In this document: positions 6,467 to 41,837 of the stretch, piece after piece
Layout: every line of letters begins with the position of its first letter
Numbering within the stretch: position 1 is the first letter of the stretch
Virus record (IMG/VR): IMGVR_UViG_3300021425_002479
Location: 1-42,243 of that record
DNA length: 42,243 nt
Strand: one strand, 5' to 3'
Origin: a virus
The notes under the pieces: generated by a model
Told to the model about the DNA's origin: nothing
What the model saw: only the letters and a program-made list of their open reading frames with translations
The model's database searches: none
Position numbers and translations under genes: made by a program

Positions 6467-7142
6467 CTTGGTTATCACCGCTGAAAGTCGCTTCAATTAT
6501 GTTATCGCCCAATCCGCTTTGGGTTATATCATAAGTGCTACCACCTCCTGTTACATCAATGTTTATCGTATGTCCGTTAACGTCTCCGTTACCGTCTATA
6601 TCAATAGTGAATGTGTTACCAGTATTAGCAAGACTTGCACTATTATCACTTGTTAGTGTAAGTGCTACACTTTCGCCATCAATGTTAGATGTGACTGTGT
6701 TACCGTCACCATCAATAGTAAAGTTTGCTACTAAGTCTTGTGCATCTGCTGTTTCACCTGCATAAATTGTAAATGCGTTTGAATCACCATTTGTTGTTAT
6801 ATTTGCTGTTACGTTTTCACAATTGACACCTGAAGTTTGATCGCAAGTCATAGTAACACTATTACTGTCTCCGATAAAACTCCACGTACCAGTATAGGTA
6901 TTCCCTTTGATAACCGCCGCTATCGTGTTAGAATCACCTTGCTGAGTAATACTAAATGTCATATCGTCGCCATCTAGTGTTACGTCAGTTTGTGATGTAC
7001 CAATCACGTTATTGGAACCATCCTGCACTATGTCTAAATCTAAATTATCACCTATTTGAGCAATATAGATATCATTAGCATAAGATGGAACGGCTATTAA
7101 AAGTGATACACATATTAAAACGCTTTTTATTATTTTTTTCAT
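6441..7142 (-). CDS. Secreted curlin-repeat protein, 233 aa (CsgA/CsgB-like)
   Basis: Signal peptide ends VPSYA before the mature start NDIYIAQIGDN. Curlin-type units follow (IAQIGDN, IVQDGSNN, ITQQGDSN, then more degenerate TINGDGNTV-type strands and ITQSGLGDN, ITQSD at the end). It is acidic, Asn/Asp/Thr-rich and nearly Lys-free after the signal peptide, typical of secreted beta-solenoid amyloids. It follows csgG by 6 bases and its end overlaps the FecR gene. It has one Cys pair (CDQTSGVNC). It probably is one of two fibre subunits exported by the adjacent CsgG/CsgF pore; major versus minor subunit cannot be told from sequence. Confidence 0.83.
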   Translation of the reverse strand: MKKIIKSVLICVSLLIAVPSYANDIYIAQIGDNLDLDIVQDGSNNVIGTSQTDVTLDGDDMTFSITQQGDSNTIAAVIKGNTYTGTWSFIGDSNSVTMTCDQTSGVNCENVTANITTNGDSNAFTIYAGETADAQDLVANFTIDGDGNTVTSNIDGESVALTLTSDNSASLANTGNTFTIDIDGNGDVNGHTINIDVTGGGSTYDITQSGLGDNIIEATFSGDNQDVDITQSD

Positions 7143-7148
7143 ATTATT

Positions 7149-8018
7149 TTAGCCCTCATCCGAGGCCCCATCTGCCTCAGATTTATTATTAATTGTCTCT
7201 ATAGATTCAGTGGTATCTTTTTTAAAAGACCATAAACGTCTACGTTCTCCTTCGTAAATGAGTTCAATAACACCCTGTTCTACCGCCGCCCTCACAGCAT
7301 AGTTTACAGGCTCATTTACAGAAAACCCAGCCTCTGTTTCTACTAATTTAGTTCCTAAATCAAAGAACTTAAAAATATCCGCTCCGGATCTATAGCTTGC
7401 GATTGTTTTTTCGGTTGCTATACTCATTAGCACTTTTCCTGTGCTAACACTTACTAGCCTCATGACTACAGTAACAGTGTCCACTCGGTACTCTGTCTGT
7501 ACGCCTAAGCCTAAATACCTTGCTCCAGCACCGCCAACGGCTGTGTTGCTGTCATATCCAACAACTCCGCCTTCCAGTATCAAACCTGCAAATAGCATTG
7601 GTTTGAGAGGGGTTGGTCCTGAAGGTAATTCTTTTTCGTATACCTCTCTTGTTTGCCTTATTAATTGCCTTTCTTTAATTAAATTATCCATTCCAACACG
7701 TTCGACTACTTGAAACCATTGTCCTTGTCCAACGTCTTGTAGGGCCTTAATGACCCAAACTTCACTGCCTTGTGTTACCGCACTACTTAAACTTGCTACC
7801 ATGTCCGAAGGTTTACGTTGACCAGTTTTATCATTAAAGCCATAAACGGCTATAGTAATTTTTGGTCCGTCAACTGGTGGAACATCTTCCATACGTTTCT
7901 GTATTGGACTCTCTTGTAGAGTAGGAGATGTAGCAGTATCCTCAAGTATTTGTAAACTTGGGTTCATTGCACATCCACCCAACATAGCAAGTGTTGTTAA
8001 GATTGCTAGGATTCTCAA
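7149..8018 (-). CDS. csgG: CsgG-family outer-membrane secretion lipoprotein, 289 aa
   Basis: Pore of the curli (type VIII) secretion pathway; in E. coli CsgG forms a nonameric outer-membrane channel for unfolded curlin. A type II signal peptide with lipobox LGGC (Cys16) is present. The core matches CsgG: ITIAVYGFNDKTGQRKP near residue 55, the ALQDVGQGQWFQVVER block near 92-107, the transmembrane-hairpin region (about 140-200) and FDLGTKLVETEAGFSVNEP. The length is close to E. coli CsgG (277 aa), with a short extra acidic tail. It overlaps csgF by 4 bases and precedes the curlin gene by 6, as expected for one secretion unit. A phage carrying it is notable. Confidence 0.95.
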   Translation of the reverse strand: MRILAILTTLAMLGGCAMNPSLQILEDTATSPTLQESPIQKRMEDVPPVDGPKITIAVYGFNDKTGQRKPSDMVASLSSAVTQGSEVWVIKALQDVGQGQWFQVVERVGMDNLIKERQLIRQTREVYEKELPSGPTPLKPMLFAGLILEGGVVGYDSNTAVGGAGARYLGLGVQTEYRVDTVTVVMRLVSVSTGKVLMSIATEKTIASYRSGADIFKFFDLGTKLVETEAGFSVNEPVNYAVRAAVEQGVIELIYEGERRRLWSFKKDTTESIETINNKSEADGASDEG

Positions 8019-8485
8019 AAGTTAAACTCCCCCAATCCTGGAATAGTAATCTCTGTAACTGATCCATCTTCTCCAATAATTGTAAGTGTAATACTTCCTG
8101 TTACTGTATCTTTGATCCAACTTATTGTGTTGCCTTCAACTTCTGCTGTGCCGGCATTTGCACAAGTGTCGCCACAATCAGCAAACATGGCATCAACCAT
8201 TTGCTTACTAAGTGTTGCGTAAATTCTACTTTCTAAGTTTCTAATAAACTTATTGAGAACGCTATTTTCTAATTCACGTTCTATTCGCCTCGCCTCTGCT
8301 TCTGCTTCTTTACGAAGTTCTTGCTTGCGATTATGCTGTAACTGTTCTACACTTAAAACGTGTGTAGAGTAACCATTGCCATAATGAAATGCTGGATTTT
8401 TAAATTTCCATGTTAGTTCAGTAGCACCGACAGGTGAATAAACTAGTACTAGAGTTAGTGCTAGTATTTGAGTTAGTCTCTTCAT
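8015..8485 (-). CDS. csgF: CsgF-like curli assembly protein, 156 aa
   Basis: CsgF binds the outer face of the CsgG pore and attaches the curli nucleator to the surface. The sequence has a signal peptide ending GATE and the CsgF N-terminal signature ELTWKFKNPAFHYGNGY (E. coli CsgF: TWQFRNPNFGGNPNNG type). A charged helix (about 55-95) and a beta-rich C-terminus with one Cys pair follow. The true start is the ATG at 8485, which has ACGGAG upstream. A GTG 27 bases earlier is in frame but lacks a ribosome site. It is the first gene of the operon. Curli accessory CsgE is not seen here. Confidence 0.87.
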   Translation of the reverse strand: MKRLTQILALTLVLVYSPVGATELTWKFKNPAFHYGNGYSTHVLSVEQLQHNRKQELRKEAEAEARRIERELENSVLNKFIRNLESRIYATLSKQMVDAMFADCGDTCANAGTAEVEGNTISWIKDTVTGSITLTIIGEDGSVTEITIPGLGEFNF

Positions 8486-8537
8486 ATATATCTCCGTTAC
8501 GAACGCCCTCACGCTCTGTTCATCGAATTACCACTTG

Positions 8538-8618: not shown

Positions 8619-9752
8619 TTATACTAGGGTGGCTTGCATACTCATGCCACGTTGTTGTCCATTTAGATACAGGGCACCGAGTTTGAATTTGTCTACAGCG
8701 TTTGATAAATCTTCAAAGTGTAGTGTGGTAATGTTATCACCACTTGCTTTCATAAGAAGCATACTTGTAAAGGCTTGCTTTGCTTTATAACTTGCAAATG
8801 CTACAGGAGCAATAGTTCTAGTTGTGTGATTTGGATATGAATTAGCAGCATCGTTTATTAAATTATCATCTGCATTAGGATATGCATACTGTAGTAAACG
8901 TTTGAATATTTGTTTTTGTTCTTCAATCATAAGTGGAGTAGGCTGTGTGCCTTCTTCAACTTTTAAGTATTGTGGATCACTTAATACATCTACAATGTTA
9001 GGTAATGTTTTTGCACTTTGACGTGTTGACTTAAACATACTTACACTCTTAGGACATTTTTTAGGATCTATTCTGCTTTGAGAACTTCTAACATAAGTGT
9101 CTAATGGATAGTCGTTCATTGCTGTCCAACGTCCGCCACCTTTGCCGCCTGCTGATGTTTTAACTTCAACAAGGTCATTGCCATATTTTAAATCATAACT
9201 TGCTTTAGGATCTGTGCCTGCTGTAACGTTTCTATGGAAACATGCAATAGCAAGTTCGCCCGGGCCTGCTTCACCTGCGTTTTTACCAATTAGTCCCGGA
9301 TCATTAATCATAGCCTTAAACATTGTTCTTGCTGTTTGGCTACCTTCGAACCAAGTATCCATTGATTGCGGTGTACCTGATTTATCAAATAACTTGTCTG
9401 GTTTGATGCAATTTGTTGTAGCGAACTCTTTTAAGAATGCAACCTTATCGTTAGTAGGAATTTCTAGCTCAATAATCATTTGTGCTAGTCTGTTAACAAA
9501 TTTTTCTGCGTCACTATCTGATTTAAAATACTTTGTTGAAACTCTAGTAATGCCGCCTTTACGTAGTATAGATTCTACTCTGTGTAATACACTAGTATCA
9601 TCTACACGCATAACTCTGTCAGCAACCTGTTGTTGTAGGTCTTTTACTTCTTTTTCGTCATAAGTATCTGAACCAACATTGACATTGGCCATTTTCTTAG
9701 CAGGTATTTCGTCACCTGGTGCTTCAACTAATTTAAAATCTTTATAACGCAT
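8619..9752 (-). CDS. Putative PD-(D/E)XK nuclease-fold protein with capsid-targeting-like N terminus, 377 aa
   Basis: No named family recognised. The middle has a plausible PD-(D/E)XK core: GPGELAIACF with E166, then YDLKYGNDLVEVKTS with D187/D193, E196 and K198, followed by a Gly-rich loop. The N-terminus MRYKDFKLVEAP resembles the T4 capsid-targeting leader (MKTYQEFIAEA), with LVE before Ala at residues 8-11 as a candidate prohead-protease site. It could be a packaged nuclease or DNA-protecting protein delivered with the genome. A late box lies 24 bases upstream, and the ATG has AGGGAA 9 nt upstream. Fold assignment is inference from motif spacing. Confidence 0.6.
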   Translation of the reverse strand: MRYKDFKLVEAPGDEIPAKKMANVNVGSDTYDEKEVKDLQQQVADRVMRVDDTSVLHRVESILRKGGITRVSTKYFKSDSDAEKFVNRLAQMIIELEIPTNDKVAFLKEFATTNCIKPDKLFDKSGTPQSMDTWFEGSQTARTMFKAMINDPGLIGKNAGEAGPGELAIACFHRNVTAGTDPKASYDLKYGNDLVEVKTSAGGKGGGRWTAMNDYPLDTYVRSSQSRIDPKKCPKSVSMFKSTRQSAKTLPNIVDVLSDPQYLKVEEGTQPTPLMIEEQKQIFKRLLQYAYPNADDNLINDAANSYPNHTTRTIAPVAFASYKAKQAFTSMLLMKASGDNITTLHFEDLSNAVDKFKLGALYLNGQQRGMSMQATLV

Positions 9753-9765
9753 TTATTGTTATTCC

Positions 9766-10473
9766 CTATATAGAATATTTATCTAATTTAGGGAACAACA
9801 TATCAGTACAGAACTTGTCTACATCTTCTTCTGCAAGTCCAAGTGTTTTCATTACGTTTGCTGTGTGGGGATTTTGTTGCTGGTTTTCACAATAATAGTT
9901 CTGTGCGGCTAGTGTCATATACTTGTCACCGTAGCCTTGAAACTGTGGTACTTCGTCAAACCATGCTTCTAAGTTTGCTAGTGCTAGATCAATAATTGCA
10001 ACAGCCTCTTCTTCTGTACGTACATTGCCTGCGGCAATCATACTATCTGTAAAAATGTTTTGAGCCCATTCAGGAAGTGTTCTTTGTTTAGTTGGTACAA
10101 AGTCTTTTACAGCATCTCTATAACCTTCTACCATTGGATGGTCATCGCCGCCACTACTTGCACTAAAGTCATGGAAGGCCCCAGTCATTTTATTTTTACC
10201 TGCAATAACATCAAAGCCGTATATTGGAGCATCGTTGTCTAGTGTTGGGAAACAACATACATGCATCATCCATAAGCCTTTAGACTCACGTGCATCTACA
10301 ACGTCTATGTGTGCTCTGCGTACATATTTGTTAGCCCATACACGATTGATCCAGCCATTGTCAGGCTGATTAAAATGCGACAGCCCTGGCTCTTCTATTT
10401 CGTCTGCATGTTTTTCAAATATTTCTAATATTTGATCCTGACACTCAATCAGTCTGTCCCATATAATGCTCAA
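9766..10473 (-). CDS. pcyX: Ferredoxin-dependent bilin reductase, PcyX-like, 235 aa
   Basis: Reduces biliverdin IX-alpha with ferredoxin electrons to a phycobilin; phage PcyX enzymes make phycoerythrobilin. The FDBR core is clear: RRAHIDVVDARESKGLWMMH, then APIYGFDVIAGKNKMTGAF and HDFSA, where the conserved catalytic Asp sits. The length of 235 aa fits PebS/PcyX rather than the larger PcyA. It lies directly downstream of, and overlaps by 29 bases, a heme oxygenase gene that supplies its substrate. The start must be the TTG at 10473: an in-frame stop lies just before it, no ATG occurs nearby, and GGAG sits 7 nt upstream. PcyX versus PebS cannot be settled without a tree. Confidence 0.88.
   Translation of the reverse strand: MSIIWDRLIECQDQILEIFEKHADEIEEPGLSHFNQPDNGWINRVWANKYVRRAHIDVVDARESKGLWMMHVCCFPTLDNDAPIYGFDVIAGKNKMTGAFHDFSASSGGDDHPMVEGYRDAVKDFVPTKQRTLPEWAQNIFTDSMIAAGNVRTEEEAVAIIDLALANLEAWFDEVPQFQGYGDKYMTLAAQNYYCENQQQNPHTANVMKTLGLAEEDVDKFCTDMLFPKLDKYSI
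9776..9782 (-). promoter_or_regulatory. T4-type late promoter box before 8619-9752
   Basis: GATAAATA-type box inside the last codons of the bilin reductase gene, 23 bases before the ATG at 9752. It leaves a leader carrying the AGGGAA ribosome site. Confidence 0.45.
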
Positions 10474-11011
10474 TGTCTAACTCCATTAGTTCTTTAAATA
10501 AATTTGTTGCAGAGTCAAAAACGTATTTTGCTTCTTCAGCCATATCGTCATTGATCTTTGCACGGACTTTGTCCTTGAGTACAGAAGTATCTTCATCAAA
10601 CTGATACATTCTAGCCTCGCCCGGTATACGTTTTTTAATCATTTGTCCGCCGCTAAGGTCACCCATGTGTAACACATATATGTGAGCCATTATTTTTGCT
10701 GGATCAGCCATTATTGTTTTCATATGACTAATGTACTCATTTGTACTTTCAACTATCGGCGGCGGTAGTTGATTATTCCATAATTCTAAGTAATCATCAT
10801 GGATTGCGTTCTTACGTCTTATTGCATATAGATCATCTAGTAAACCGTGTGTAGTTGCAACAGCTTCTAGTAAATCATATTTCTTATGTTGATTCCATAA
10901 GTATGTTGCGTAGAACTGTGGATTAATTTTTCCACTCATCAATACTTTAACAAACTCTTGTCTTTCTGCTTCTTTATGATGTTCCCATGTTAATTCTTTT
11001 AAATTTCCCAT
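10445..11011 (-). CDS. ho1: Heme oxygenase, HO1 family, 188 aa
   Basis: Opens heme to biliverdin IX-alpha, CO and iron in the cytoplasm. The proximal heme-ligand His is in LTWEHHKEAER near residue 11, and the distal-helix signature HMGDLSGGQMI is near residue 115. The length is typical of bacterial and phage HO1. The start chosen is the ATG at 11011, three bases after the clpS stop; an upstream in-frame TTG at 11029 would overlap clpS. The gene overlaps the downstream bilin reductase, so the two enzymes are translationally coupled and form a heme-to-phycobilin pathway. Iron or CO release from heme are alternative benefits to the phage. Confidence 0.92.
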   Translation of the reverse strand: MGNLKELTWEHHKEAERQEFVKVLMSGKINPQFYATYLWNQHKKYDLLEAVATTHGLLDDLYAIRRKNAIHDDYLELWNNQLPPPIVESTNEYISHMKTIMADPAKIMAHIYVLHMGDLSGGQMIKKRIPGEARMYQFDEDTSVLKDKVRAKINDDMAEEAKYVFDSATNLFKELMELDIEHYMGQTD

Positions 11012-11012
11012 A

Positions 11013-11315
11013 TTACTCGTTTTCTTCAACCCTTATTTGCAGGGGGAACCCCTGGTTTCTACTAAGTGTTGTTGCTTCAGCTGCTTTTACTTCTGCAATC
11101 TCATACGAGTAAACTCCTACAACACCACTTCCTTCTGTATGTATCGTCATTGTTATTTCTTCTGCTACAGCCTGGCTGTGTTTGAATACAGATATTAATA
11201 ATGACACGACCCATTCCATAGGCGTTGCGGCATCATTGAGAAATACTACCTTGTATTGACTAGGTTTCTTAATCTCTTGTTTGATTTTTTCATCTAATTG
11301 TACGTCTACCGACAT
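11013..11315 (-). CDS. clpS: ClpS-like ATP-dependent protease adaptor, 100 aa
   Basis: Adaptor that delivers N-degron substrates to host ClpAP. The ClpS core is plain: YKVVFLNDAATPMEWVV (N-degron pocket region with the ND and M), FKHSQAVAEEITMTIH and GVVGVYSYEIAEVKA. The length matches host ClpS. The Shine-Dalgarno GAGGAAAG lies 3 nt before the ATG, right behind the hsp20 terminator T-run. No ClpA is present in the window, so it would act on the host protease, perhaps redirecting it. It forms a unit with ho1 and the bilin reductase downstream. Confidence 0.92.
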   Translation of the reverse strand: MSVDVQLDEKIKQEIKKPSQYKVVFLNDAATPMEWVVSLLISVFKHSQAVAEEITMTIHTEGSGVVGVYSYEIAEVKAAEATTLSRNQGFPLQIRVEENE

Positions 11316-11326
11316 TTTCTTTCCTC

Positions 11327-11354
11327 AAAAAATGGGGGAGTAGTACACTCCCCC
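11327..11354 (-). terminator. Rho-independent terminator after hsp20
   Basis: Stem GGGGGAG/CTCCCCC (11334-11340 with 11348-11354), 7-base loop, then six Us on the minus transcript (11332-11327). It separates hsp20 from clpS. Confidence 0.85.
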
Positions 11355-11362
11355 TAGACTAG

Positions 11363-11827
11363 TTACTTCTCAGCAACTTCACCATCGATTGTAAAACCAT
11401 TATTGATTTTAATTTTCTTTGGTTGTAGTTCCTCAGGAACCTCACGCTTCAAATGAATGTTAAGCATACCTAGTTCAAGGCCTGCACTTTCAACATCAAC
11501 GTGATCTGCAAGTGTAAACTCCCTACGGAAGTTACGTCCGCCAATACCTTTGTGTAGGTAATTGACATCCTCGTCCCCTTTAGGTGCTGTTCCTTCAATC
11601 TTTAAGATATTTTTATCTTTCTCAATTGAAAGATTGTCCATACCAAAGCCAGCAACCGCTAATGAGATCATGTACTCATCTTCGTTTATCTGTGCAATGT
11701 TATATGGGGGATACCCTTGTCCTTTAGCAGAATTTTCGAATACTCTGTCCATTTCGTCGAACATTCTATCGAATCCTACAAAGTGTCTGTGAATTGAGGG
11801 TAAGTCTAAGGTTGATATTCTTGTCAT
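11363..11827 (-). CDS. hsp20: Small heat shock protein, Hsp20/IbpA family, 154 aa
   Basis: ATP-independent holdase chaperone. It has the IbpA-type N-terminal region with the GFDRMFDEMDRVFE and YPPYNI signatures, then the alpha-crystallin domain (about residues 40-130) with MISLAVAGF, RNFRREFTLAD and a GMLNIHLKREVPE strand. A C-terminal IxI-type motif is present (KKIKIN). Hsp20 is common in T4-like cyanophages, where it may help scaffold or virion assembly. The start has AGGAG 7 nt upstream and a TATAAATC box 24 bases upstream. A strong terminator follows. Confidence 0.95.
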   Translation of the reverse strand: MTRISTLDLPSIHRHFVGFDRMFDEMDRVFENSAKGQGYPPYNIAQINEDEYMISLAVAGFGMDNLSIEKDKNILKIEGTAPKGDEDVNYLHKGIGGRNFRREFTLADHVDVESAGLELGMLNIHLKREVPEELQPKKIKINNGFTIDGEVAEK

Positions 11828-11850
11828 AGTTTTCTCCTTTATTAAGCAAG

Positions 11851-11857
11851 ATTTATA
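11851..11857 (-). promoter_or_regulatory. Late-type promoter box before hsp20
   Basis: TATAAAT followed by C, seven of eight matches to TATAAATA, 23 bases upstream of the hsp20 ATG. A second box lies at 11921-11927. Confidence 0.4.
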
Positions 11858-11893
11858 TTAAAGAGTCCTTTCGGCACTCTACCTAAATGTATT

Positions 11894-11910
11894 GGGGGAA
11901 TCATTCCCCC
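11894..11910 (-). other. Hairpin between groES and hsp20, no U-tract
   Basis: GGGGGAA/TTCCCCC with a 3-base loop (11894-11900 with 11904-11910). On the minus transcript it is followed by AATACATTT, not a U-run, so it is a weak terminator at best. It begins 10 bases after a late box and could cap a late mRNA leader. Confidence 0.5.
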
Positions 11911-11920
11911 TCTACACGTT

Positions 11921-11927
11921 TATTTAT
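11921..11927 (-). promoter_or_regulatory. T4-type late promoter box overlapping the groES stop
   Basis: ATAAATA overlapping the groES TGA, continuing AACGTG. The same ATAAATAAACGTG string occurs in front of pstS. Confidence 0.5.
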
Positions 11928-12214
11928 CATTGTAAAACCGCTACTATGTCTTTTTCGACAATAGTTGTGTATTTTACATCTGATATTTCATATGATTCGC
12001 TGACGTTTGGGTTGACTAGTATTCTAGCACCAACTTCAACTTCAGGCACGATAAAGTTACCTTTATCATCATATTTACCAGGACCAACAGCCATAACTTC
12101 AGCTTCCATAATAGTATCGATCTGAGCTTTAGCAATAAAAATACCGCCTGCTGTTTGCTCCTCTGGTTCGTCTATCTTGATAATTATCTTATCAAGAATT
12201 GGTCTTAAGTTCAT
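11927..12214 (-). CDS. groES: GroES-like co-chaperonin, 95 aa
   Basis: Lid of the GroEL chaperonin; T4 gp31 plays this role in phage head folding. The sequence is a full-length Cpn10: MNLRPILDKIIIKIDEPEEQ, then a mobile loop containing AGGIFIAK (the GGI[FV][IL] GroEL-binding tripeptide), AVGPGKYDDKGNFIVPEVEVG and IVEKDIVAVL. The family's roof-loop and beta-barrel spacing are kept. It is driven by the best sigma70 promoter in the window (TTGACT, 17 bp, TATAAT), so early expression is likely. It probably replaces or modifies host GroES for capsid protein folding. Confidence 0.95.
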   Translation of the reverse strand: MNLRPILDKIIIKIDEPEEQTAGGIFIAKAQIDTIMEAEVMAVGPGKYDDKGNFIVPEVEVGARILVNPNVSESYEISDVKYTTIVEKDIVAVLQ

Positions 12215-28483: not shown

Positions 28484-28490
28484 TATTTAT
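28484..28490 (-). promoter_or_regulatory. T4-type late promoter box for the tail fibre
   Basis: ATAAATA on the minus strand, overlapping the stop of the exonuclease gene, 29 bases before the GTG start at 28454. Confidence 0.55.
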
Positions 28491-29167
28491 GCTTGTTTCT
28501 CATAATACATTTCACAACGCTTCCACCACTCTTGAGCCCAATCGTCAAACTCATCTGGCCATATATCAAATTGTTGATATTCTAAGTCACGTGAACACAT
28601 AAACACATGTCCTTCACGTATGTTTGTGCCGTGTACTTCGTTGTGTGCTAAGGCGTATGCTGTTAACTGTAGATAGTAATCATACACCCACTCAGGTTTT
28701 TTAGGTTTGTTTGTTTGTTTGAAATCCATTATGCATGGCTGTCCTTTGTATTGTCCTACAAGGTCAGTTGTACCTGCATAGATACCAGGTACGTATAAAG
28801 GAACTTCAGATCCCCATATCTCATCTACATCGCCCATTGCTTTGTCACGTATTACACTTGCCATTGCATGAGCTTTTTGTGCATAAGGATTACCACCGCA
28901 AGTAGGCCATTCGCCAAACTCTATATAATCTTCTAGATATTTGTGCATACGTGTACCCACGCCTGCCGCTTCGGTTACAATCTCTTGTGCTTTTGCTTCA
29001 CCAACCCGTTTGCGCCAAGCAATTAAGTGTGTTTTGTCTTTTGTTGCATCTAAGATAGTTGTTACACTTGCTACTGGTACACCGCCGGGTGCGGCATACT
29101 TACGTTTGCCGTCGACTTCAACTCGCTTGAGTTTTTCGTATTTGTATTTTTCGATGATTAGTGACAT
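28487..29167 (-). CDS. PD-(D/E)XK exonuclease, Cas4/RecB-like, 226 aa
   Basis: Nuclease of the RecB/Cas4-like superfamily found in T4-like cyanophages. The core is visible: VGTRMHKYLEDYIEFG (helix with acidic residue), GIYAGTTDLVGQYKGQPCIM then DFKQTNKPK (Asp, D-x-K), and the QxxxY helix DYYLQLTAYALAH. No iron-sulphur Cys set typical of Cas4 is complete, so a RecE/lambda-exonuclease-like role in recombination or host DNA degradation is more likely. GGAA lies 9 nt before the ATG. It has its own sigma70 promoter, so early expression. Confidence 0.88.
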   Translation of the reverse strand: MSLIIEKYKYEKLKRVEVDGKRKYAAPGGVPVASVTTILDATKDKTHLIAWRKRVGEAKAQEIVTEAAGVGTRMHKYLEDYIEFGEWPTCGGNPYAQKAHAMASVIRDKAMGDVDEIWGSEVPLYVPGIYAGTTDLVGQYKGQPCIMDFKQTNKPKKPEWVYDYYLQLTAYALAHNEVHGTNIREGHVFMCSRDLEYQQFDIWPDEFDDWAQEWWKRCEMYYEKQA

Positions 29168-29216: not shown

Positions 29217-29528
29217 CTATAAGTCGCTTAGATCAGTTGCTCTTTTTGCCATGTCGCCTACTGTGTCAGTAGAGCTTGGTTCAGTGCTACCCAGTTGATC
29301 CATTGAGCTATCATTAATAGTTACCCCATTTGGGTCGAACTTAACTAGCTTCTGGAGTTGTGGATTAGAATCGTATGTTTCTTTGAATGTGTTGTAATCA
29401 AACTGAGGAACGCCTGCTTTTTTCATATAGCCGTTGAGTTTATCCCAACTAACAGTTGTTCCAGGTTTAATTGTTTTGATAATTTGTACTAAGGTACCAG
29501 ATTCGTCTAATGCTTCAGCTATTTGAGC
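29217..29528 (-). CDS. C-terminal domain in the -1 frame of 29519-30271 (frameshift product or split gene), 103 codons
   Basis: This open frame continues directly from the upstream gene after a run of nine A (29529-29537 on the minus strand). The upstream gene ends SKKKLK; a -1 shift on the A-run gives SKKKAQIAEALDESG and 100 more sensible residues (KPGTTVSWDKLNGYMKKAG, YDSNPQLQKLVKFD), ending RATDLSDL. No start codon with a ribosome site exists; the only ATG (29426) lies deep inside the domain. Programmed frameshifting, transcription slippage, a real mutation or a one-base homopolymer error would all explain it. Confidence 0.55.
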   Translation of the reverse strand, partial: AQIAEALDESGTLVQIIKTIKPGTTVSWDKLNGYMKKAGVPQFDYNTFKETYDSNPQLQKLVKFDPNGVTINDSSMDQLGSTEPSSTDTVGDMAKRATDLSDL

Positions 29529-30271
29529 TTTTTTTTTGAACGCTCTACACTTTCACGCTTTTCACGACCAGCTTCTTCTTCTCCGCCTGCCGCAGCATCG
29601 TCTGCACCAAAGTCATCGCCCATGTCCATGTCCATGTCGTCTGCTGGTGCTTCCGCATCCATATCGTCTGTTGGTTCCATGTCACCCATGTCACCCATTT
29701 CGTCGCCCATAGGTTCTTCAGCGCCGCCTTCACCTGTTAGTTGTCCAACACCGTTTGTTAGTGCAACACGAGTAGTTTCCATTACTTCGTACATTTGCTC
29801 TAGTGCAGGCTTAACAGTGTTTACAAATGACTCGCTTTGCTCACTACCCATTTCGTCACGGATAGCATCTGCTAGTTCAAGCATTGATTCTGTTTGCATT
29901 TCTGCTGTGTCTTCCATCCAACCTGTTACACGGTCTACCATGTCTTTGGCTGCCATTACTAATTCTGCTTTATCTTCTTCGCCTTCAGTAATAGTTGCTT
30001 CAAGTACAGGCTCTTCAATATCACCTCTTTCAGAAATTTCAGCGTTAAGAACATCTAGGAAAAGTTTTGATTTTTGATACGCTTGTGTTTGAGTTGAATT
30101 GAAACTTTCTTTTGTTTCTACTTGGCTTAGTTGTGTTCTAAGTTTGTTCTGAGCATCTTGTAATTGCCCGAGTGTAAATTCTTCTAAATTTAGACGTTGG
30201 CCAAACTTCTTAGCAAGACTTTCATTTAAAGCCTTTGCTGTAATTGGTTTTGAAATTTCTCTTATATTCAT
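29519..30271 (-). CDS. Virion or prohead-core type phage protein, 250 aa
   Basis: Helical acidic protein with an N-terminal leader (MNIREISKPITAKALNES) that includes LNE, a candidate prohead protease site at residues 15-17. A helical core follows (about 25-185, ELADAIRDEMGSEQSESFV), then a very acidic Met/Asp-rich linker (about 190-235) and a basic end (GREKRESVERSKKK). That composition fits a prohead scaffold or core protein rather than an enzyme. The A-run at the end permits a -1 shift into 29217-29528. A double late box (ATAAATAAATA) lies 32 bases upstream. Confidence 0.65.
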   Translation of the reverse strand: MNIREISKPITAKALNESLAKKFGQRLNLEEFTLGQLQDAQNKLRTQLSQVETKESFNSTQTQAYQKSKLFLDVLNAEISERGDIEEPVLEATITEGEEDKAELVMAAKDMVDRVTGWMEDTAEMQTESMLELADAIRDEMGSEQSESFVNTVKPALEQMYEVMETTRVALTNGVGQLTGEGGAEEPMGDEMGDMGDMEPTDDMDAEAPADDMDMDMGDDFGADDAAAGGEEEAGREKRESVERSKKKLK

Positions 30272-33903: not shown

Positions 33904-34995
33904 TTAGTTTGGTTGCCATCTAGTTCGTGGCACCAGTTTTACTTTTGACTTTTGAGCAACGTAACCTTCGCCCCCTTGCTCGTCGCCTGTTGATGCTTTG
34001 ATATCGGCATCCGCTCCATCTAGTTGTGCAATGATGTCATCCTTTGCAATCATTATTTGTTTTACTAAATTAAAGATTGCTGGCAAAGCCTCTGGATTGC
34101 TTTCATTCATTGCCGCTAGTTTTGCCTGTTGTCCTTGACTGACCTTACTTGTTTTAAGCCAATCAAAAAATCCGTTTTCTATATTATCTATCTGCTGTGT
34201 GCGAGTCATATGATTCATATAGGTATAAATGATTCCTGCTGGATTACTTAGTCCTTGTACGCCTGCTAAGAACTTATCTATATGTCCAGCATGTGCATTT
34301 ACTTGCTTACGTATTTTATCTGTTTCTTTTGTATTAACGTCTGGCTGATGCGAAACATATGTTTGTCCTAGTACAACAACATCTTTGTTATTAAGCTCGC
34401 CTGTTTGTTGTATAGGTTGTCCAGCCTTGTCTCCAAACTCATCGTACCGTGTGTGTACAGTAACACCTACTTTGCTTTGTGCAATACGCTTGCCTATGTC
34501 ACTGTTTGCATCTACAGTATATGTAACTTTGTTAGGTGTAAACTGTATTTTGCCGTCTTTGATTACAAATGGTTTACCTGGGTGATACAACAAGTCACCG
34601 TATACATATTCGTTTACACTAGGTGGTGTTGCATTTTTAAGTACATTAAAAATAGCACCCATGTCGTTACCAAACTTCTCACGCCACTCTTCACCCTTGC
34701 CTGAATTTTTAATAAAGTTTGCAAGGTCGTCTGCTGTTTTACTTTTGTTTCTGCCCCAGCCATTTTTGCCTACCATTACAAATGTTCCGTCATCTTCTCT
34801 ACCCCAATAGATAGTAGGATTACCGTCCCATTTAATTGCAACGTCTGAACTGTCAGTTCCTAAGTTGTCTAGTATGTCTGCGGCTTTAAGTGCGCCTTTA
34901 GACCCGTCAACAAAAACAAGGTCTTCCAAATGCTGATATTCTCTACCAACTTTGGCCGCTTCGGTTAACGTGTATCTAAACTCTGTAAATCTCAT
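33904..34995 (-). CDS. DUF6267-type protein with KWDG ligase-like motif, 363 aa
   Basis: Marine T4-like phage protein family of unknown function. Near residue 53-65, VAIKWDGNPTIYWG resembles motif I of nucleic-acid ligases and capping enzymes (K-x-D-G, K55), followed by a strand GTFVMVGKNGW. A second segment EYVYGDLLYHPGKP (129-141) and FTPNKVTYTVD (152-162) could be later fold motifs, but ligase motifs IV and V are not obvious. The N-terminus MRFTEFRYTLTEAAK has LTE before Ala at 10-13, as in packaged T4 proteins. It overlaps the upstream nucleotidyltransferase-like gene (ATGA), so the two are made together. Confidence 0.72.
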   Translation of the reverse strand: MRFTEFRYTLTEAAKVGREYQHLEDLVFVDGSKGALKAADILDNLGTDSSDVAIKWDGNPTIYWGREDDGTFVMVGKNGWGRNKSKTADDLANFIKNSGKGEEWREKFGNDMGAIFNVLKNATPPSVNEYVYGDLLYHPGKPFVIKDGKIQFTPNKVTYTVDANSDIGKRIAQSKVGVTVHTRYDEFGDKAGQPIQQTGELNNKDVVVLGQTYVSHQPDVNTKETDKIRKQVNAHAGHIDKFLAGVQGLSNPAGIIYTYMNHMTRTQQIDNIENGFFDWLKTSKVSQGQQAKLAAMNESNPEALPAIFNLVKQIMIAKDDIIAQLDGADADIKASTGDEQGGEGYVAQKSKVKLVPRTRWQPN

Positions 34996-35759
34996 TTTGG
35001 AAGTAACTCTTTAATTCTACGTAACTGTTTTTCGCCTAGTGTTTCTACGGCTACTTTTGCTTTCTTCCATGGATGGTTTGGATCGTCTTTTGCTTCTAAC
35101 TCGTCTACTAGGTCTTTGGCCATAGGACTTTTAGCAACCATTGCTTCAACTGACCCTAGGTCTTTTGCTTCAGCATCAGCACCTAAAAGTATTTTTGCTA
35201 TCTTATCTAAGTCACTTGATATAAGTGAATCGTCTTTGCGATCTAATAATCCTTTATATGCACTCCACTTCATACCTTCTGGATGATTATCGCTCTTAGT
35301 ATTCTTTGCTAGGTCAGCAATTAGTATTTGCTTGTGTACACCCTTGTATGGTGAACCTTGCGGTATATCGTGAATGTGAAACTTTTGTGCTGTTTCGCCT
35401 TTGTCAACAACCATTATGTCAACTTGTTGTGCGCCTTTGCCTGCTGTTGTTTTAACATGAACACTTGTGCCGCTACGTTTAGTTTCATAACCTGCTTGCT
35501 GAAATAACTTTTCTAATTCTATTCTTGCATCTTTAGGAGTTTTAACATTAAAATGATTGAACAATGTGCCTGCGTCAATAATCATATCAAGGTCGCCGCT
35601 TATTTTACCTGGTGTTGGTGATGCGCCTGAGCCAATTGGCAATGCCTTTGCACCAGTTTTTGTTGTTACAGAATTAATTTGTTTCATCATGTCGGGTATT
35701 ATCTTATGATCAAACGGCTCTGTACCTTGGAATATGTTTCCACCTTCATTCAGTGTCAT
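34992..35759 (-). CDS. Nucleotidyltransferase-fold (pol beta-like) protein, 255 aa
   Basis: The NTase signature is visible: LPIGSGASPTPGKISGDLDM with G43-S44 and the D56-x-D58 metal pair, and later QQVDIMVVD with the third Asp D114. This is hGS-x(9-13)-D-x-D ... D, as in pol beta, poly(A) polymerase and tRNA-modifying NTases. The C-terminal half is helical (about 150-255). Start ATG 35759 has AAGGA 7 nt upstream; an earlier in-frame TTG is less likely. The N-terminus MTLNEGG carries LNE before Gly, a possible head-protease site. Overlap with the KxDG gene suggests a joint nucleic-acid end-modifying function. Confidence 0.72.
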   Translation of the reverse strand: MTLNEGGNIFQGTEPFDHKIIPDMMKQINSVTTKTGAKALPIGSGASPTPGKISGDLDMIIDAGTLFNHFNVKTPKDARIELEKLFQQAGYETKRSGTSVHVKTTAGKGAQQVDIMVVDKGETAQKFHIHDIPQGSPYKGVHKQILIADLAKNTKSDNHPEGMKWSAYKGLLDRKDDSLISSDLDKIAKILLGADAEAKDLGSVEAMVAKSPMAKDLVDELEAKDDPNHPWKKAKVAVETLGEKQLRRIKELLPK

Positions 35760-36009
35760 TATTTTTTCCTTCAATAATTCTTGCTATACTTCTTTTAAAC
35801 TTTTTAGGGTCACCTGACCTGATGCTGTTAAGGAAACGTCTTTCTAACTCAGCTGCATTGTCTTGGTCGTAAACACGGTGAATCATATTAAGCAAATTAA
35901 TAGAGCTTTCAATTATGTTACTTGCTGTTGCTTCTATTAAAAGATCATCGTTCTTAGGTCTACCTAAGTTATTGAGCTCTTCTAATATACTTCGTGTTTT
36001 TTTACGCAT
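35746..36009 (-). CDS. Small helical phage protein, 87 aa
   Basis: Helical, charged protein: MRKKTRSILEELNNLGRPKN, then DDLLIEATASNIIESSINLL and a basic C-terminal half (RRFLNSIRSGDPKKFKRSIA). ILE (8-10) and LIE before Ala (25-28) are candidate prohead-protease sites. Its end overlaps the nucleotidyltransferase gene by 14 bases. AGGAA lies 9 nt before the ATG, behind a late box. First gene of the late head-protein run. Function unknown. Confidence 0.6.
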   Translation of the reverse strand: MRKKTRSILEELNNLGRPKNDDLLIEATASNIIESSINLLNMIHRVYDQDNAAELERRFLNSIRSGDPKKFKRSIARIIEGKNNDTE

Positions 36010-36054: not shown

Positions 36055-36076
36055 AAAGCATATAATGGAGGGCACC

Positions 36077-36844
36077 ATGCAAGATATAGAAAAAATGAAT
36101 TTTCTCGAGCGTTCATTGTTATTTGCAAAATTATCACAAATAGCATATGATAACTTCGATGAAGCAAAAAAGCAAGCGAAAAAATTAGGATTTACAACAA
36201 TAGAGTTTTACGACAAAGACGGAGCTCAGGCTTATCGTTTTATGAACAAGACAGACTTAGTAATTGCTTGTAGAGGTACACAACCTACAGAGTTTAACGA
36301 CATCAAGGCAGATGCAAACGCCCTTCCTGTAGTAGCAGAAACTATTTCAAGAGTACACAAAGGATTTAAAGTAGAAGTTGATGAACTTTGGCCAATGGTG
36401 CTGGAAGATATCGATCGCAAAGCCAACAGCAATAAAAAACTTTGGTTTTGTGGGCATAGTTTAGGAGCGGCAATGGCTACCATTATGGCAAGTCGCTGTC
36501 ACCTATACCCTGAGATTAATCCTGTTGAGGAACTGTACACCTACGGTTCACCACGTGTTGGTTGGCCAAAGTATTGTAGTAGTTTAGGCATTGTTCACCA
36601 TAGATGGAAAAACAACAACGACATAGTTACCACTGTGCCGCTAGTGATAATGGGCTATCGTCATCACGGTCAAGAACATTACATTAATGCTTATGGACTA
36701 TTAAGAAATCCTACAGGATGGCAACGAGTCAAAGATAAATTACGCGGTATTTGGATGGGTTGGAAACAAGGTAAGATTGATTCCTTCAGCGATCATAATA
36801 TTAGTGATTACATCAAACACATTGAGAATGCGTTAAGCAAATAA
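36077..36844 (+). CDS. Class 3 lipase (alpha/beta hydrolase), 255 aa
   Basis: Lipase_3 family esterase. The nucleophile elbow is CGHSLGAA (Ser near residue 138), followed by a catalytic Asp in [11 protein letters not shown] and a His in FSDHNISDY. An oxyanion-type [12 protein letters not shown] occurs near residue 76. No signal peptide, so it acts in the cytoplasm or on the inner membrane; membrane lipid breakdown during lysis or assembly is possible. The start is ATG 36077, with GGAGGG just upstream; an ATG 12 bases earlier is part of that ribosome site. It is the only plus-strand gene after 1802 and converges on prs with a 12-base overlap. Confidence 0.9.
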
Positions 36845-37898: not shown

Positions 37899-38687
37899 TT
37901 AGCCAAAGTCTCCGCTTACGTAGGCTTTAGTTTTTCTATGATTAGGATTGCCAAAGATTTTCTTTGTGGTACCCTTTTCTATGATCTCTCCCAAATGGAA
38001 GTACGCTGTTGTATCTGAAATACGTTTTGCCTGTTGCATATTGTGTGTCACAATAACAATGGTATAGTTCTTTTTCAGTTCAAGTATTAGTTCTTCAATA
38101 GCATTGGTTGAGATTGGATCTAGTGCTGAACAAGGCTCATCTAGTAATAGTATCTGTGGATCAACGGCAAGGCTACGAGCAATACATAGTCGCTGTTGCT
38201 GTCCACCACTAAGGCCAAATGCATTGTCGTGCAATCTATCTTTTACTTCATCCCAAAGATTTGCTTTCTTTAGACTGTCTTCTACGATAGCATCTAACTG
38301 TTCTTTTGTTTCGTACATACGATGTAGTTTAGGACCATATGCAATGTTTTCATAGATGCTTTTTGGAAAAGGATTAGGCTTTTGAAACACCATACCTACA
38401 CTCTTACGCAAGTTGTTTACATTGGTATATTGTGTTCTATAAATGTCAGTACCGTCAATGTCTACCGAGCCTTTGGTTTTGCAAATATCAACAAAGTCGT
38501 TCATACGGTTCAATGCTCTAAGGAATGTGCTTTTACCACAACCACTTGGACCAATTAGAGCAGTAACATTGTTCTTGCGTATCTGTAAGTCAGCATCAAT
38601 AATAGCGTGATGATCATCATACCAAATGTTTAGTCCTCGAACATTGATCTTTGAACTTGAATTTAGTTCTAGTGTTTCTCTTACCAT
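37899..38687 (-). CDS. pstB: Phosphate ABC transporter ATP-binding protein PstB, 262 aa
   Basis: ATPase of the high-affinity phosphate importer. Walker [10 protein letters not shown] (near residue 46), Q-loop [20 protein letters not shown], signature [15 protein letters not shown], Walker [16 protein letters not shown] and the switch His [10 protein letters not shown] are all intact. Length and sequence are those of bacterial PstB. The start overlaps the pstA stop. A strong terminator follows. Its catalytic motifs are complete, so the phage copy should be able to work. Confidence 0.97.
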
Positions 38688-39862
38688 TTTATTTCAAACC
38701 TTTTCCTTAACCAGATTGCTAATGCATTTAGCACTATGAGTGCTGAGAGTAGAACAAGGATTGCCGCACTGGTTTTTTCAGCAAAGCCTCGTTCGGGTGA
38801 GTCTGCCCAAAGATATATTTGAACAGGTAATGTTGTTGCACTATCCATCGGAGTACTTGGTGCTGTAAGAATAAATGCAACCATACCAATCATTAGTAGT
38901 GGCGCACTCTCTCCTATTGCTCTAGCAATACCTATGATAGTTCCTGTGATGATGCCAGGCGTAGCCGCTGGCAACACCTGATAAATTGTTGTTTGCATTC
39001 TACTGCCACCTAGAGCATTTGATGCATCTCTAATTGACTGTGGTACTGTTCTAAGAGCCGTCCTGGCACTAATAACAATCACAGGAAGTATTAGGATGCC
39101 CAGTGTAATTGCTCCTACTAAACTAGCACTCCTTGGCATACCAAAGAAGTTTATCAACAATGCTAAACCTAACAAGCCATAAACAATACTAGGTACTGCG
39201 GCTAGGTTGTTGATGTTGATCTCCATAAAGTCTCGGACCCAACCACGCTTCCTAATTTGAAACTCTTCCATATAAGTAGCACATCCTACTCCTATAGGAA
39301 ATGCAAACAATACTGCCAGTCCAATTGTGTAAAACGTTCCTACCACTGCTCCCCATATGCCTGCTATCTCAGGTGAGCGACTGTCTGAGTTTGTCCAGAA
39401 GTCCCAATTGAATCCTCGATATATCTTGCCTTGCTCTATAAGAGAATCCACAACACTTTGTTGAACTTCATCTAGTTTGTTGTAAACGCCTTTAACATAC
39501 ATATCAACGTCTGTGTGTGCTACTAGTGTATAAACACCTGGCTCTATAATATCTATCGTACTATAAGCATTAGGAGTAACAAGTTGTCGCAAACTTTTCT
39601 TAGTCTTTCGATCGTTCATATCTGTTACTAGGTTATACATTGCACTGTTAATTGTTTTCTTTGTAGTGCTTTCTACATCATAAACTTCTACATCAATCTT
39701 AGTTTGTGTAAATGCGCCTATACCTTTATAGCCTAGTGTAGCAAAGAACACCAACATCAATAATGCTGTTAGTGCAAGTGCAGACTTACAGGCATACTCT
39801 AGGCCTTTTTGTAGGCGTCTGCGTCTGCCGTCTAGTCTACTGTTTAAGTCTATCGATTGCAT
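38681..39862 (-). CDS. pstA: Phosphate ABC transporter permease PstA, 393 aa
   Basis: Inner-membrane permease. TM1 (about 28-48) is followed by a long periplasmic loop (about 55-165), as in alphaproteobacterial PstA, then five more helices. The EAA motif that docks PstB is [20 protein letters not shown], then TPGIITG. The start overlaps pstC by 26 bases without a clear ribosome site, so translation is coupled. Longer than E. coli PstA (296 aa) because of the loop; this points to an alphaproteobacterial donor. Confidence 0.95.
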
Positions 39863-40784
39863 TCTTATAGTTCCTATATGCTATCCAGTTTAATATAAAT
39901 GTAACTACAAATAGAGTAAACGCAAGAGCAAATGCTGAAAGTGTTTTGGCACTGTCAAACTCTTGGTCACCTATTAGTAGTGTTACAATCTGTACTGTTA
40001 CTGTTGTTACTGCTTCTAGTGGATTAGCTGTTAAGTTAGCGGCTAGTCCTGCCGCCATAACAACAATCATTGTTTCACCTACGGCTCTTGCAATGGCCAT
40101 AATAAATCCTGCAACAATGCCCGGCAGGGCGGCAGGTAATATAATATCTTTAATTGTTTCTTCTCGTGTAGCACCTACACCTCTTGCGCCGTCTCGCATT
40201 GCACTTGGTACTGCTTTGATAACATCATCAGTGATTGACGAGATCAAGGGTATAATCATCATACCCATTACAAGTCCAGCGGCCAGTGCTGACTCGGTTG
40301 CTACATCTAATCCAAGTGTAACACCCATTTCACGCAGCCAAGGACCTAGCACGATTGCGGCAAAGAATCCGTACACCACTGTAGGGATGCCTGCTAGTAT
40401 TTCTAACAATGGCTTTACTACTATTCGGTGTGAGGGTTTTAAATATTCTGATGTATAAATTGCGGCAAGCAATCCAATTGGTCCTGCTATGCACATTGCA
40501 ATAATTGTAATAAAAAGTGTGCCCCACATTAGTGGAACAAATCCAAACTCGCCTGAGCTACCTACACTGTCTGCTCTAAAGGCTGTTTGTGGGCTCCAAG
40601 TGGTGTTAAAGAAAAACTCACTGGGCGGAACCATTGTAAAAAATTTAATTGTTTCGTAACTTAGACTAGCAATGATGGCAAATGTAATTCCTACTGTAAT
40701 CCAACTACTAACTCTAAAAAAGCCTTTAAGCCAGTCTTCACTGAACCCGCTTTGCTTTTGCTTTGGTCCTATCCATATAAACAT
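39837..40784 (-). CDS. pstC: Phosphate ABC transporter permease PstC, 315 aa
   Basis: Partner permease of PstA. It has six hydrophobic helices and the EAA motif ARGVGATREETIKDIILPAA, then LPGIVAG. The length is near E. coli PstC (319 aa). The start is ATG 40784, with GAGG 6 nt upstream; the ATG 12 bases earlier forms part of the ribosome site. A strong cUUCGg hairpin lies between pstS and this start. Complete and apparently functional. Confidence 0.95.
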   Translation of the reverse strand: MFIWIGPKQKQSGFSEDWLKGFFRVSSWITVGITFAIIASLSYETIKFFTMVPPSEFFFNTTWSPQTAFRADSVGSSGEFGFVPLMWGTLFITIIAMCIAGPIGLLAAIYTSEYLKPSHRIVVKPLLEILAGIPTVVYGFFAAIVLGPWLREMGVTLGLDVATESALAAGLVMGMMIIPLISSITDDVIKAVPSAMRDGARGVGATREETIKDIILPAALPGIVAGFIMAIARAVGETMIVVMAAGLAANLTANPLEAVTTVTVQIVTLLIGDQEFDSAKTLSAFALAFTLFVVTFILNWIAYRNYKNAIDRLKQ

Positions 40785-40799
40785 TCTATACCTCATAAT

Positions 40800-40823
40800 G
40801 GGAGTGAGCCGAAGCCCACTCCC
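40800..40823 (-). other. Intercistronic hairpin between pstS and pstC
   Basis: GGGAGTGGGC-TTCG-GCTCACTCCC on the minus strand (40823-40814 with 40809-40800), one G-U pair, cUUCGg tetraloop. There is no U-tract. It lies 13 bases after pstS and 16 bases before pstC, so it may block 3' decay and keep PstS levels above those of the permeases. Confidence 0.7.
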
Positions 40824-40835
40824 TTAATTTATGAC

Positions 40836-41837
40836 TTAGTTTAACACGTTCGCACGTACTTTGTCAAGTTCTTTTTGTGGTAGAGGAATAAGTCCTGCAT
40901 CACCTAATGAACCATCTTGTCCTGCAACGTCATCACTAAGGTATAGTTCCATAAACTCAGTCATACCTGGAATTACACCCATATGTTCTTTCTTAGCATA
41001 TACATATAGTCCACGGCTTGCTGGATATGTTCCATCTGCGATAGATTCAAATGTTGGAACAACTCCACTGATAGGAGATCCTTGAATAACATCTGTGTTT
41101 TGGTCTAGGAATGAATATCCAAAGATACCAAACGCATTAGGATTGTTAGTTAATTTTTGAATGATAAGGTTATCGTTCTCACCTGCTTCTACATACGCAC
41201 CATCTTCACGGATACCGTGACAGATGCCTTTGTATGCTTTCTTGTCTTTCTTCTTCATAGATTTTACCCAATCAAAAGTCTTACAACCTTTTTCCATAAC
41301 AAGTTCTACCCAAGCATCTCTTGTTCCACTTGATGGTGGAGGTCCAAGTACTTCAATTTTAATTGCTGGAAAGTTTGGGTTAATTTGATTCCAATGTGTG
41401 TATGGATTTGCAACGAGGCTTCCATCTACTTGTGGAACATCTTTAGCCAATGCTTTGTATAACTCAAGTGGAGTTACTTCCATTGCTGGGCCTTCTTTTG
41501 AGTTAGCGAACACAATGCCGTCATAGCCTACCATCATCTCTAATGGTGTGATGCCGTTTGCTGCACACTTTTCTACTTCACTTGATTTAATAGCACGACT
41601 TGCGTTTGTGAAGTCTGGGTGACTTGCACCTGTACCTGCACAAAACAATTTCATACCACCACCAGTACCAGTTGATTCAATAACTGGAGCTGTGTTGCCT
41701 TCTGCGGCAAATGTTTCGCCTACGATTGTTGTGAAAGGATAAACTGTAGAGGACCCTACAATTCTAATTTCTCTTGCTTCAGCTACAGATGCAACTGCAA
41801 AGACGGTCAAGAGAGCCGCCACGAATGATTTTACCAT
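40836..41837 (-). CDS. pstS: Phosphate-binding protein PstS, 333 aa
   Basis: Periplasmic phosphate receptor. A signal peptide ends VAEA. Phosphate-loop residues are visible in VGSSTVYPFT, ESTGTGGGMKLFCAG, and PPSSGTRDAWVEL. The length is usual for alphaproteobacterial PstS. AGGAG lies 7 nt before the ATG. It is first in the operon and has a sigma70 promoter whose -10 also forms a perfect late box, so it can be made both early and late. PstS is a familiar phage auxiliary gene; here it keeps its transporter. Confidence 0.96.
   Translation of the reverse strand: MVKSFVAALLTVFAVASVAEAREIRIVGSSTVYPFTTIVGETFAAEGNTAPVIESTGTGGGMKLFCAGTGASHPDFTNASRAIKSSEVEKCAANGITPLEMMVGYDGIVFANSKEGPAMEVTPLELYKALAKDVPQVDGSLVANPYTHWNQINPNFPAIKIEVLGPPPSSGTRDAWVELVMEKGCKTFDWVKSMKKKDKKAYKGICHGIREDGAYVEAGENDNLIIQKLTNNPNAFGIFGYSFLDQNTDVIQGSPISGVVPTFESIADGTYPASRGLYVYAKKEHMGVIPGMTEFMELYLSDDVAGQDGSLGDAGLIPLPQKELDKVRANVLN

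Follow-up and report, generated by a model that had tools for sequence, protein, structure and literature searches.

A family-X-like nucleotidyltransferase and a ligase-superfamily-like DUF6267 protein, encoded by overlapping phage genes, as a candidate head-packaged break-repair pair

The IMG/VR virus record IMGVR_UViG_3300021425_002479, of which all 42,243 bases were analyzed (the window), is read here as DNA of a marine virus of bacteria. On its minus strand a gene for a nucleotidyltransferase (NTase) overlaps a gene for a protein with the motif KWDG, a member of the family DUF6267, and the question arises what such a pair would do for a phage. A preliminary description of this DNA had reported the two overlapping reading frames, and the coupled arrangement was confirmed, with a 4-base overlap at the place given. 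It had also likened the pair to T4 Alt, as a means of takeover or host-protein modification, for which we found no support; the pair looks like one for nucleic-acid break repair. We propose, with confidence evenly divided for and against, that it is a head-packaged fill-and-seal break-repair pair of a T4-like marine phage. From the genes, their motifs and predicted folds, their linkage and a conserved tag, we infer catalysis, order of action, packaging and delivery as follows. At a gap or a broken 3' end the NTase would add one nucleotide or a few, after which the DUF6267 protein would form a nucleotidyl-lysine at K55 and seal the strand. Translation of the two may be coupled, as the gene overlap suggests. 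Both proteins would be taken into the prohead via N-terminal tags, which a gp21-type protease would trim after (L/I)xE, and both would be delivered with the genome, with breaks being mended on entry.

Sequence searches with the NTase gave little. No Pfam or PHROG family was matched, and tblastn with the window protein found no match among 50,697 phage records. The Pfam scans, which took in 38 members, matched no Pol X family (family X DNA polymerases), a short resemblance to the fingers of Thermus PolX being all that was seen; RlaP was not matched either, in scans that miss distant relatives. Conservation was more informative. Relatives of both proteins were drawn from IMG/VR, and among 116 distinct NTase homologs S59, G60, D61 and D63 occur in 114 of the 114 rows with a letter at these places and D119 in 115 of 115. 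The catalytic aspartates D61, D63 and D119 keep the hG[GS]..DxD..D order of Pol X. The pol beta-type pattern GS...DLD...D, which had been pointed out earlier, therefore holds as GS..SGDLD plus D119, conserved and not due to chance.

The AlphaFold2 model of the NTase has a mean predicted local distance difference test score (pLDDT) of 92, and the only longer run below 50 comprises residues 1-10, a putative propeptide. As had been expected from the motif, the model has a palm and fingers of the pol beta type. Foldseek returned pol lambda with an E value of 3.7e-6 and 132 matches at or below 1e-3, the best 50 being all pol lambda or mu, a uniformity that is partly a matter of abundance since the PDB contains a great many Pol X structures. 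With VIA-align, Z scores of 10.8-11.3 were obtained for pol beta, lambda, mu and terminal deoxynucleotidyl transferase. For pol beta (Z 11.3) the root-mean-square deviation was 3.4 Å over 172 residues, lying within pol beta 142-338; the match covers palm and fingers, the 8-kDa and thumb parts fall outside it, and the NTase model has extra C-terminal helices. The fingers segment of one relative (L156, LAKEKGMKWSPYKGLV) resembles that of Thermus PolX (LAQEKGLKLSEYGVF), and the best local match to Thermus PolX (256-287) lies at the fingers place in 27 of 40 NTase relatives, with modest scores (median z 2.3). Together, model and motifs support a minimal family-X-like polymerase fold of palm and fingers for the NTase. 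Its C-terminal tail, DKQLxRIKEL, was also considered as a possible scaffold-like signal.

The KWDG protein matches Pfam PF19782 (DUF6267; E 3e-31) and PHROG phrog_455 (E 6e-16), both of which are listed without assigned function, and no mention of DUF6267 was found in the literature searched. K55-W-D-G58 and R66 are present in all 125 lettered rows of 128 DUF6267 homologs, and G133-D134, E343-G344, K353 and R357 are likewise invariant wherever a letter is present. In a broader set of 21 sequences that extends down to 17-27% identity, with added proteins of cyanophage, pelagiphage and methylophage origin and from Vibrio and Xanthomonas phages, the invariant residues are H22, D25, K55, D57, G58, G65, K77, D134, Y159, H181, E343, G344, K353 and V355; a separate alignment of 50 sequences gave the same picture. 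As read from these alignments, the invariant residues are the KxDG, acidic, EG and K pattern of motifs I, III, IV and V of ligases, the motif names being those in general use for that superfamily. The earlier likening of IKWDG to ligase motif I is in keeping with this, the invariance of KWDG being no chance event.

In the AlphaFold2 model of the DUF6267 protein (mean pLDDT 87) the only longer run below 50 is residues 1-18, again a putative propeptide. When 989 PDB chains were re-aligned to it with VIA-align, the best 50 entries were all DNA or RNA ligases. We base the ligase reading on the motif set combined with this ligase-only neighbor list. The OB-fold (oligonucleotide/oligosaccharide-binding) domain that follows motif V in ATP-dependent DNA ligases of the T4 gp30 type was not found; the DUF6267 chain stops about 10 residues past K353, its model has no further domain, and a helical insert lies between the strands of motifs III and IV. 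Profiles of DUF6267 and of the NTase gave nothing significant against PDB sequences. Comparison of DUF6267 with small ligase alignments by hhalign showed no link and was powerless, as it also missed that between T4 Rnl2 and T4 DNA ligase. No DUF6267 member matched PF09414 (RNA ligase, Rnl2 type) at E <= 1, in scans that miss distant relatives. We regard the DUF6267 protein as ligase-superfamily-like, a predicted assignment that has weaker fold support than that of the NTase. Features of the pair are collected in Table 1.

Table 1. Positions of the two genes, their proposed motifs and the adjoining structural gene in the window
Feature	Position	Strand	Remark
DUF6267 protein	33904..34995	(-)	363 aa; ligase-superfamily-like, proposed strand-sealing enzyme
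Pol-X-like nucleotidyltransferase (NTase)	34992..35774	(-)	260 aa from TTG; 255 aa from ATG ending at 35759
Overlap of the DUF6267 and NTase genes, 4 bases	34992..34995	(-)	also found in 125 of the 170 loci that have both
SGDLD (59-63), two catalytic Asp of the pol-beta superfamily	35586..35600	(-)	invariant
D119, third catalytic Asp	35418..35420	(-)	invariant
Fingers-like segment GSPYKGVHKQILIADLAK..GMKWSAYKGLL	35241..35357	(-)	aligns with pol beta and lambda fingers
KWDG, ligase motif I, K55 as proposed nucleotidyl-lysine	34822..34833	(-)	invariant; position from sequence
GD (133-134) at the place of motif III, with Asp for the Glu usual in ligases	34594..34599	(-)	D134 invariant
EGYVAQKSKVKLVPR (343-357), motifs IV and V	33925..33969	(-)	E343, G344 and K353 invariant
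LTEA (residues 10-13 of DUF6267), candidate prohead-protease site ending propeptide MRFTEFRYTLTE	34957..34968	(-)	conserved
LNEG (8-11 of NTase), candidate prohead-protease site	35742..35753	(-)	Glu in 113 of 116 relatives
87-aa virion structural protein, at the head of the overlapping run of genes	35746..36009	(-)	phrog_11854, E 3e-14

The two genes are strongly linked. Among 188 contigs with either gene, both were present within the fetched stretch in 149, DUF6267 only in 25 and the NTase only in 14; as the loci had been picked via one gene or the other, these counts are not unbiased rates. Strict co-occurrence, which the preliminary description had suggested as a check, was rejected on these numbers. 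Most of the contigs nevertheless have the two genes together, and neither this count nor the predicted folds refuted the earlier proposal. In 37 loci the same strand carries a gp41/DnaB-like helicase gene, 0.3 to 1.7 kb upstream (DnaB_C, E 1e-21, for the copy in L239). A scan of cellular genomes yielded no more than three relatives of the NTase. Each is in a metagenome-assembled genome, and one has primase-, helicase- and DUF6267-like genes next to it, as in a phage. The rhizobial jumbo phages Atu_ph07 (an Agrobacterium phage) and Sinorhizobium phage Phosso contain NTase relatives (family-profile E 2e-7 and 6e-11) that are overlapped by a gene with the motif KLDGSF, for which the match to PF09414 RNA_ligase is weak (E 0.002, spanning almost all of the profile, and 0.085). 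This second coupling, in which the partner of the NTase relative is PF09414-like, lends separate support to the pairing of NTase and ligase-like genes. A further NTase relative was seen in the Prevotella megaphage Lak-B5 (L234:3872-4849; E 2.5e-20 with the family profile), and no ligase-like neighbor was noticed there within 8.6 kb of sequence.

An alternative is an RNA repair pair directed against host anticodon nucleases, in which the NTase would restore nucleotides of cleaved tRNAs or other RNAs and DUF6267 would be an RNA ligase. The PDB fold neighbors of DUF6267 include Naegleria RNA ligase, the tRNA ligase Trl1 and T4 Rnl1, and in the viral library searched the match that ranks first beyond the family itself is to an RNA ligase from phage Atu_ph07 (E 2.9e-3), in which the PF09414-like gene overlaps the NTase relative. 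In jumbo phages RlaP goes along with RNA ligases (PMC7824862), and a DNA ligase is already encoded in two pair-bearing genomes, G001 and G002. Against this, the NTase resembles Pol X most closely in its fold, fingers included, and had no match to RlaP in the Pfam scans, the neighborhood is one of replication genes, and there is no obvious reason why an RNA repair pair should be packaged. We rate RNA repair as a tentative possibility, clearly behind the break-repair pair proposed above. For the substrate itself we lean slightly to DNA, because of the Pol X fold, the replisome neighbors and the ligase that cyanophages seem to miss, whereas the ligase folds closest to DUF6267, like the precedent of RlaP in jumbo phages, favor RNA.

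The missing cyanophage ligase leads to the wider distribution of DUF6267. A cyanophage DUF6267 query found 468 phage records: 368 of Synechococcus phages, 61 named cyanophage, 24 of Prochlorococcus, 4 of Methylophilales and 2 of Pelagibacter phages, and a few others including jumbo phages. With a cyanophage UvsX query the matching name classes held 374, 61, 24, 4 and 2 records, respectively. DUF6267 appears to be near-universal in T4-like cyanophages, the comparison with UvsX being one of class counts and not record by record, and would be a long-unexplained gene of nearly all known T4-like marine cyanophages. There it sits in the gp43-uvsX-gp41 cluster, bearing the label T4-GC 71 in S-SM2 and S-PM2, and the annotated copies that were looked at are called hypothetical proteins or cytidylyltransferase-like fusions. 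No ligase of PF01068, PF09414 or PF01653 was found in four cyanophage genomes, while the control, T4, matched the first two. According to a review, cyanomyoviruses either lack g30 or have a distant homologue that was not identified, absence being thought more probable (PMC2984593).

DUF6267 might simply be the ligase that T4-like cyanophages ordinarily make during infection for replication and repair, with the tag of the window clade secondary and the NTase a mere neighbor. It is as common as cyanophage UvsX, the four cyanophages have no other recognizable ligase, in line with the g30 noted as missing (PMC2984593), and the cyanophage copies read start at the domain without a tag. However, G001 and G002 hold DUF6267 plus a classical DNA ligase, so that DUF6267 is an additional enzyme there, and the NTase overlap in most loci together with the second NTase-ligase pairing elsewhere speaks against mere neighborhood in the clade of the window. 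We consider this reading unlikely. In the first cyanophages read and in later loci, including XaC1 and Vibrio 2.275.O, no NTase homolog was found beside DUF6267; the neighbors in HTVC008M and Melnitz lay outside the NTase profile scan.

In 9 of the DUF6267 loci that lack the NTase there is a HIGH-type cytidylyltransferase, usually directly after DUF6267, and none of the fetched loci has both this enzyme and the NTase. DUF6267 and the cytidylyltransferase are merged with each other in phrog_455 and in a 591-amino-acid protein of S-PM2. These neighbors, of which DUF6267 has one or the other and never both, the merged proteins and the lack of a C-terminal OB domain after motif V would also suit a nucleotidyl- or capping-type transferase of the ligase superfamily that joins no strands and modifies, for example, ends or small molecules. 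The best 50 VIA-align entries, though, are all ligases with no capping enzyme among them, an absence that excludes nothing, and the rhizobial jumbo phages, with their NTase relative next to a PF09414-like gene, speak for ligation. Such a transferase seems to us quite improbable. Recycling of NAD+ between DUF6267 and its HIGH-type neighbor was considered and dropped for lack of evidence.

The argument for packaging comes from the N-termini. T4 gp21 cleaves after (L/I)xE (PMC9026906). The T4 internal proteins IPII and IPIII start with MKTYQEFIAEA and IPI with MKTFKEF..ITEA, and the DUF6267 protein of the window begins MRFTEFRYTLTEA. Candidate head-protease sites had already been noticed near both N-termini, and they proved to be conserved: (L/I/M)xE stands just before the domain in 125 of 126 DUF6267 relatives of the window clade, even where about 40 residues are inserted ahead of it, and the glutamate of the NTase site is similarly retained (Table 1). 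Judged by sequence, the sites of both proteins resemble T4 capsid-targeting propeptides. For the window NTase only 4 to 9 residues precede the glutamate, which is short for a propeptide (the ATG at 35759, taken as the start in the preliminary description, matches that of relatives such as L088); the relatives L101-L107 have a longer tag of the type MKI.[DE]LLNEA. Within the first 35 residues, [LI]xE[AGS] occurs in 7 of the 15 genes that make up the 28.5-36.0 kb cluster and in 1 of 39 others (Fisher p 2.5e-4), the bounds of the cluster having been set after looking at the data. Several cyanophage DUF6267 proteins begin directly at the domain (MAKNTHLEHLED), and so the tag looks like an added module; those of HTVC008M and Melnitz read ..LVE|D and ..ITE|D, respectively. 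In the cyanophage loci L217, L218 and L220 DUF6267 itself has no tag, and a cytidylyltransferase with a T4-like tag (MRFLDFIKEA, MRFRQFIIEA) was seen after it (L217:7171-8244, L218:7161-8225, L220:7164-8261).

The pair lies in what looks like a cluster of head genes, because the first gene of the overlapping run, which overlaps the start of the NTase gene, and the open reading frame at 29519-30271 match PHROGs named virion structural protein. At the edge of this cluster is a phrog_298 exonuclease gene (28487-29167, minus strand; E 3e-53), and similar genes were seen near the pair in related loci. The segment 31209-31837 (minus strand) encodes two small and strongly basic proteins, of net charge +30 and +27, with the N-terminal sites IDE|G and LSE|A, like T4 internal proteins. 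Outside the cluster, a 377-amino-acid protein without Pfam or PHROG match (8619-9752, minus strand) starts with MRYKDFKLVEAPGDE, very like a T4 capsid-targeting tag, and is possibly another packaged protein. The pair-bearing genome G002 (357 kb) has a T4-type gp21 (E 8.5e-27), gp23 and gp20; in the 236-kb record G001 none of gp23, gp20 and gp21 was found, and for this search the window counts as a fragment. The packaging put forward in the preliminary description gains from the T4-like N-termini and the gp21 protease of one pair-bearing relative; for both proteins we regard it as a supported prediction.

In favor of the head-packaged break-repair pair are the Pol X palm and fingers with an intact aspartate triad, the invariant ligase motifs and the ligase-only fold neighbors, and further the gene overlap, the pairing in Atu_ph07 and Phosso, the upstream helicase, the tags, the virion-protein neighbors and the gp21 of G002. 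Several observations weigh against it. The arginine of the usual Pol X GSxxR is not present in the NTase, and sequence profiles link neither protein to a known ligase or polymerase. The ligase fold suspected earlier returned in the neighbor list, but at middling strength: the best Foldseek match in the PDB was a tRNA ligase adenylyltransferase domain at E 0.04, and the best VIA-align Z was 7.3, for Naegleria RNA ligase, in a range (Z < 8) that can mean merely a common arrangement of elements. RNA and DNA ligases are equally frequent among the closest ligase folds. Both genes also occur apart, as in the contigs counted above, and gp21 was not found in 15 of 16 pair-bearing records, mostly fragments. 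The confidences given to the alternatives and to the proposed pair need not sum to one, because the readings overlap; DUF6267 may be a replicative and a packaged ligase. A more far-reaching version would have a virion-packaged, injected polymerase and ligase kit mend incoming DNA before expression, with DUF6267 a new family that is also the overlooked ligase of cyanophages; this we hold to be rather doubtful, just below RNA repair. Packaging of the tagged versions would mean that the heads of some marine phages hold a break-repair kit, and on the ligase reading the DUF6267 proteins of cyanophages would make the question of the missing g30 (PMC2984593) open to assay.

Other genes of the window were noted in passing. 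On the minus strand at 4263-8512 is a phage curli set, with curlin repeats in 4263-5321 and 6441-7142, CsgG at 7149-8018 and CsgF at 8015-8512; phage-borne curlin-repeat genes would be notable because the methylophage Melnitz and pelagimyophages have csgF and csgG and lack csgA and csgB (PMC9004378). Also on the minus strand are a 683-amino-acid protein with CHASE2 and an adenylate/guanylate cyclase catalytic domain (1783-3834), a host-like run of ferredoxin-dependent bilin reductase, heme oxygenase, ClpS, Hsp20 and GroES (9766-12214), and a phosphate-transport-like operon (37899-41837) with two BPD_transp_1 permeases, a PBP_like_2 binding protein and an ATPase-like frame recognized from its translation only, adjoining phosphoribosyl pyrophosphate synthetase. 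Encoded on the plus strand, a class 3 lipase-like gene (36065-36844) closely adjoins the head cluster on its upstream side.

Compared with known systems, DUF6267 shares its motif order and a weak fold match (Z 5.7 and 5.8) with T4 DNA ligase and T4 Rnl1 and, unlike these, has no recognizable sequence similarity to them, no C-terminal OB domain and a helical insert. From the PF19782/phrog_455 members of cyanophages that were read, the window protein differs by its tag. This tag, of the MKTYQEFIAEA type with a predicted cleavage after (L/I)xE, is like that of T4 IPI, IPII, IPIII and Alt (PMC9026906), whereas the cargo would be a predicted polymerase and ligase instead of small basic proteins or an ADP-ribosyltransferase. 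RlaP of jumbo phages, predicted to act with an RNA ligase in RNA repair, likewise links an NTase of the pol-beta superfamily functionally to a lysyl-nucleotidyl ligase (PMC7824862); the window NTase differs from it in a fold nearest to Pol X, in matching no RlaP family in Pfam and in the head-targeting-like tags. The closest parallel appears to be African swine fever virus, whose minimal Pol X consists of palm and fingers without thumb and 8-kDa domains (PMC5330486). There the minimal Pol X works with a virus-encoded ligase to repair viral DNA, a function that is predicted for our pair. Differing from that virus, the window genes overlap, the NTase has extra C-terminal helices, DUF6267 belongs to a different family with a helical insert, and the host is bacterial.
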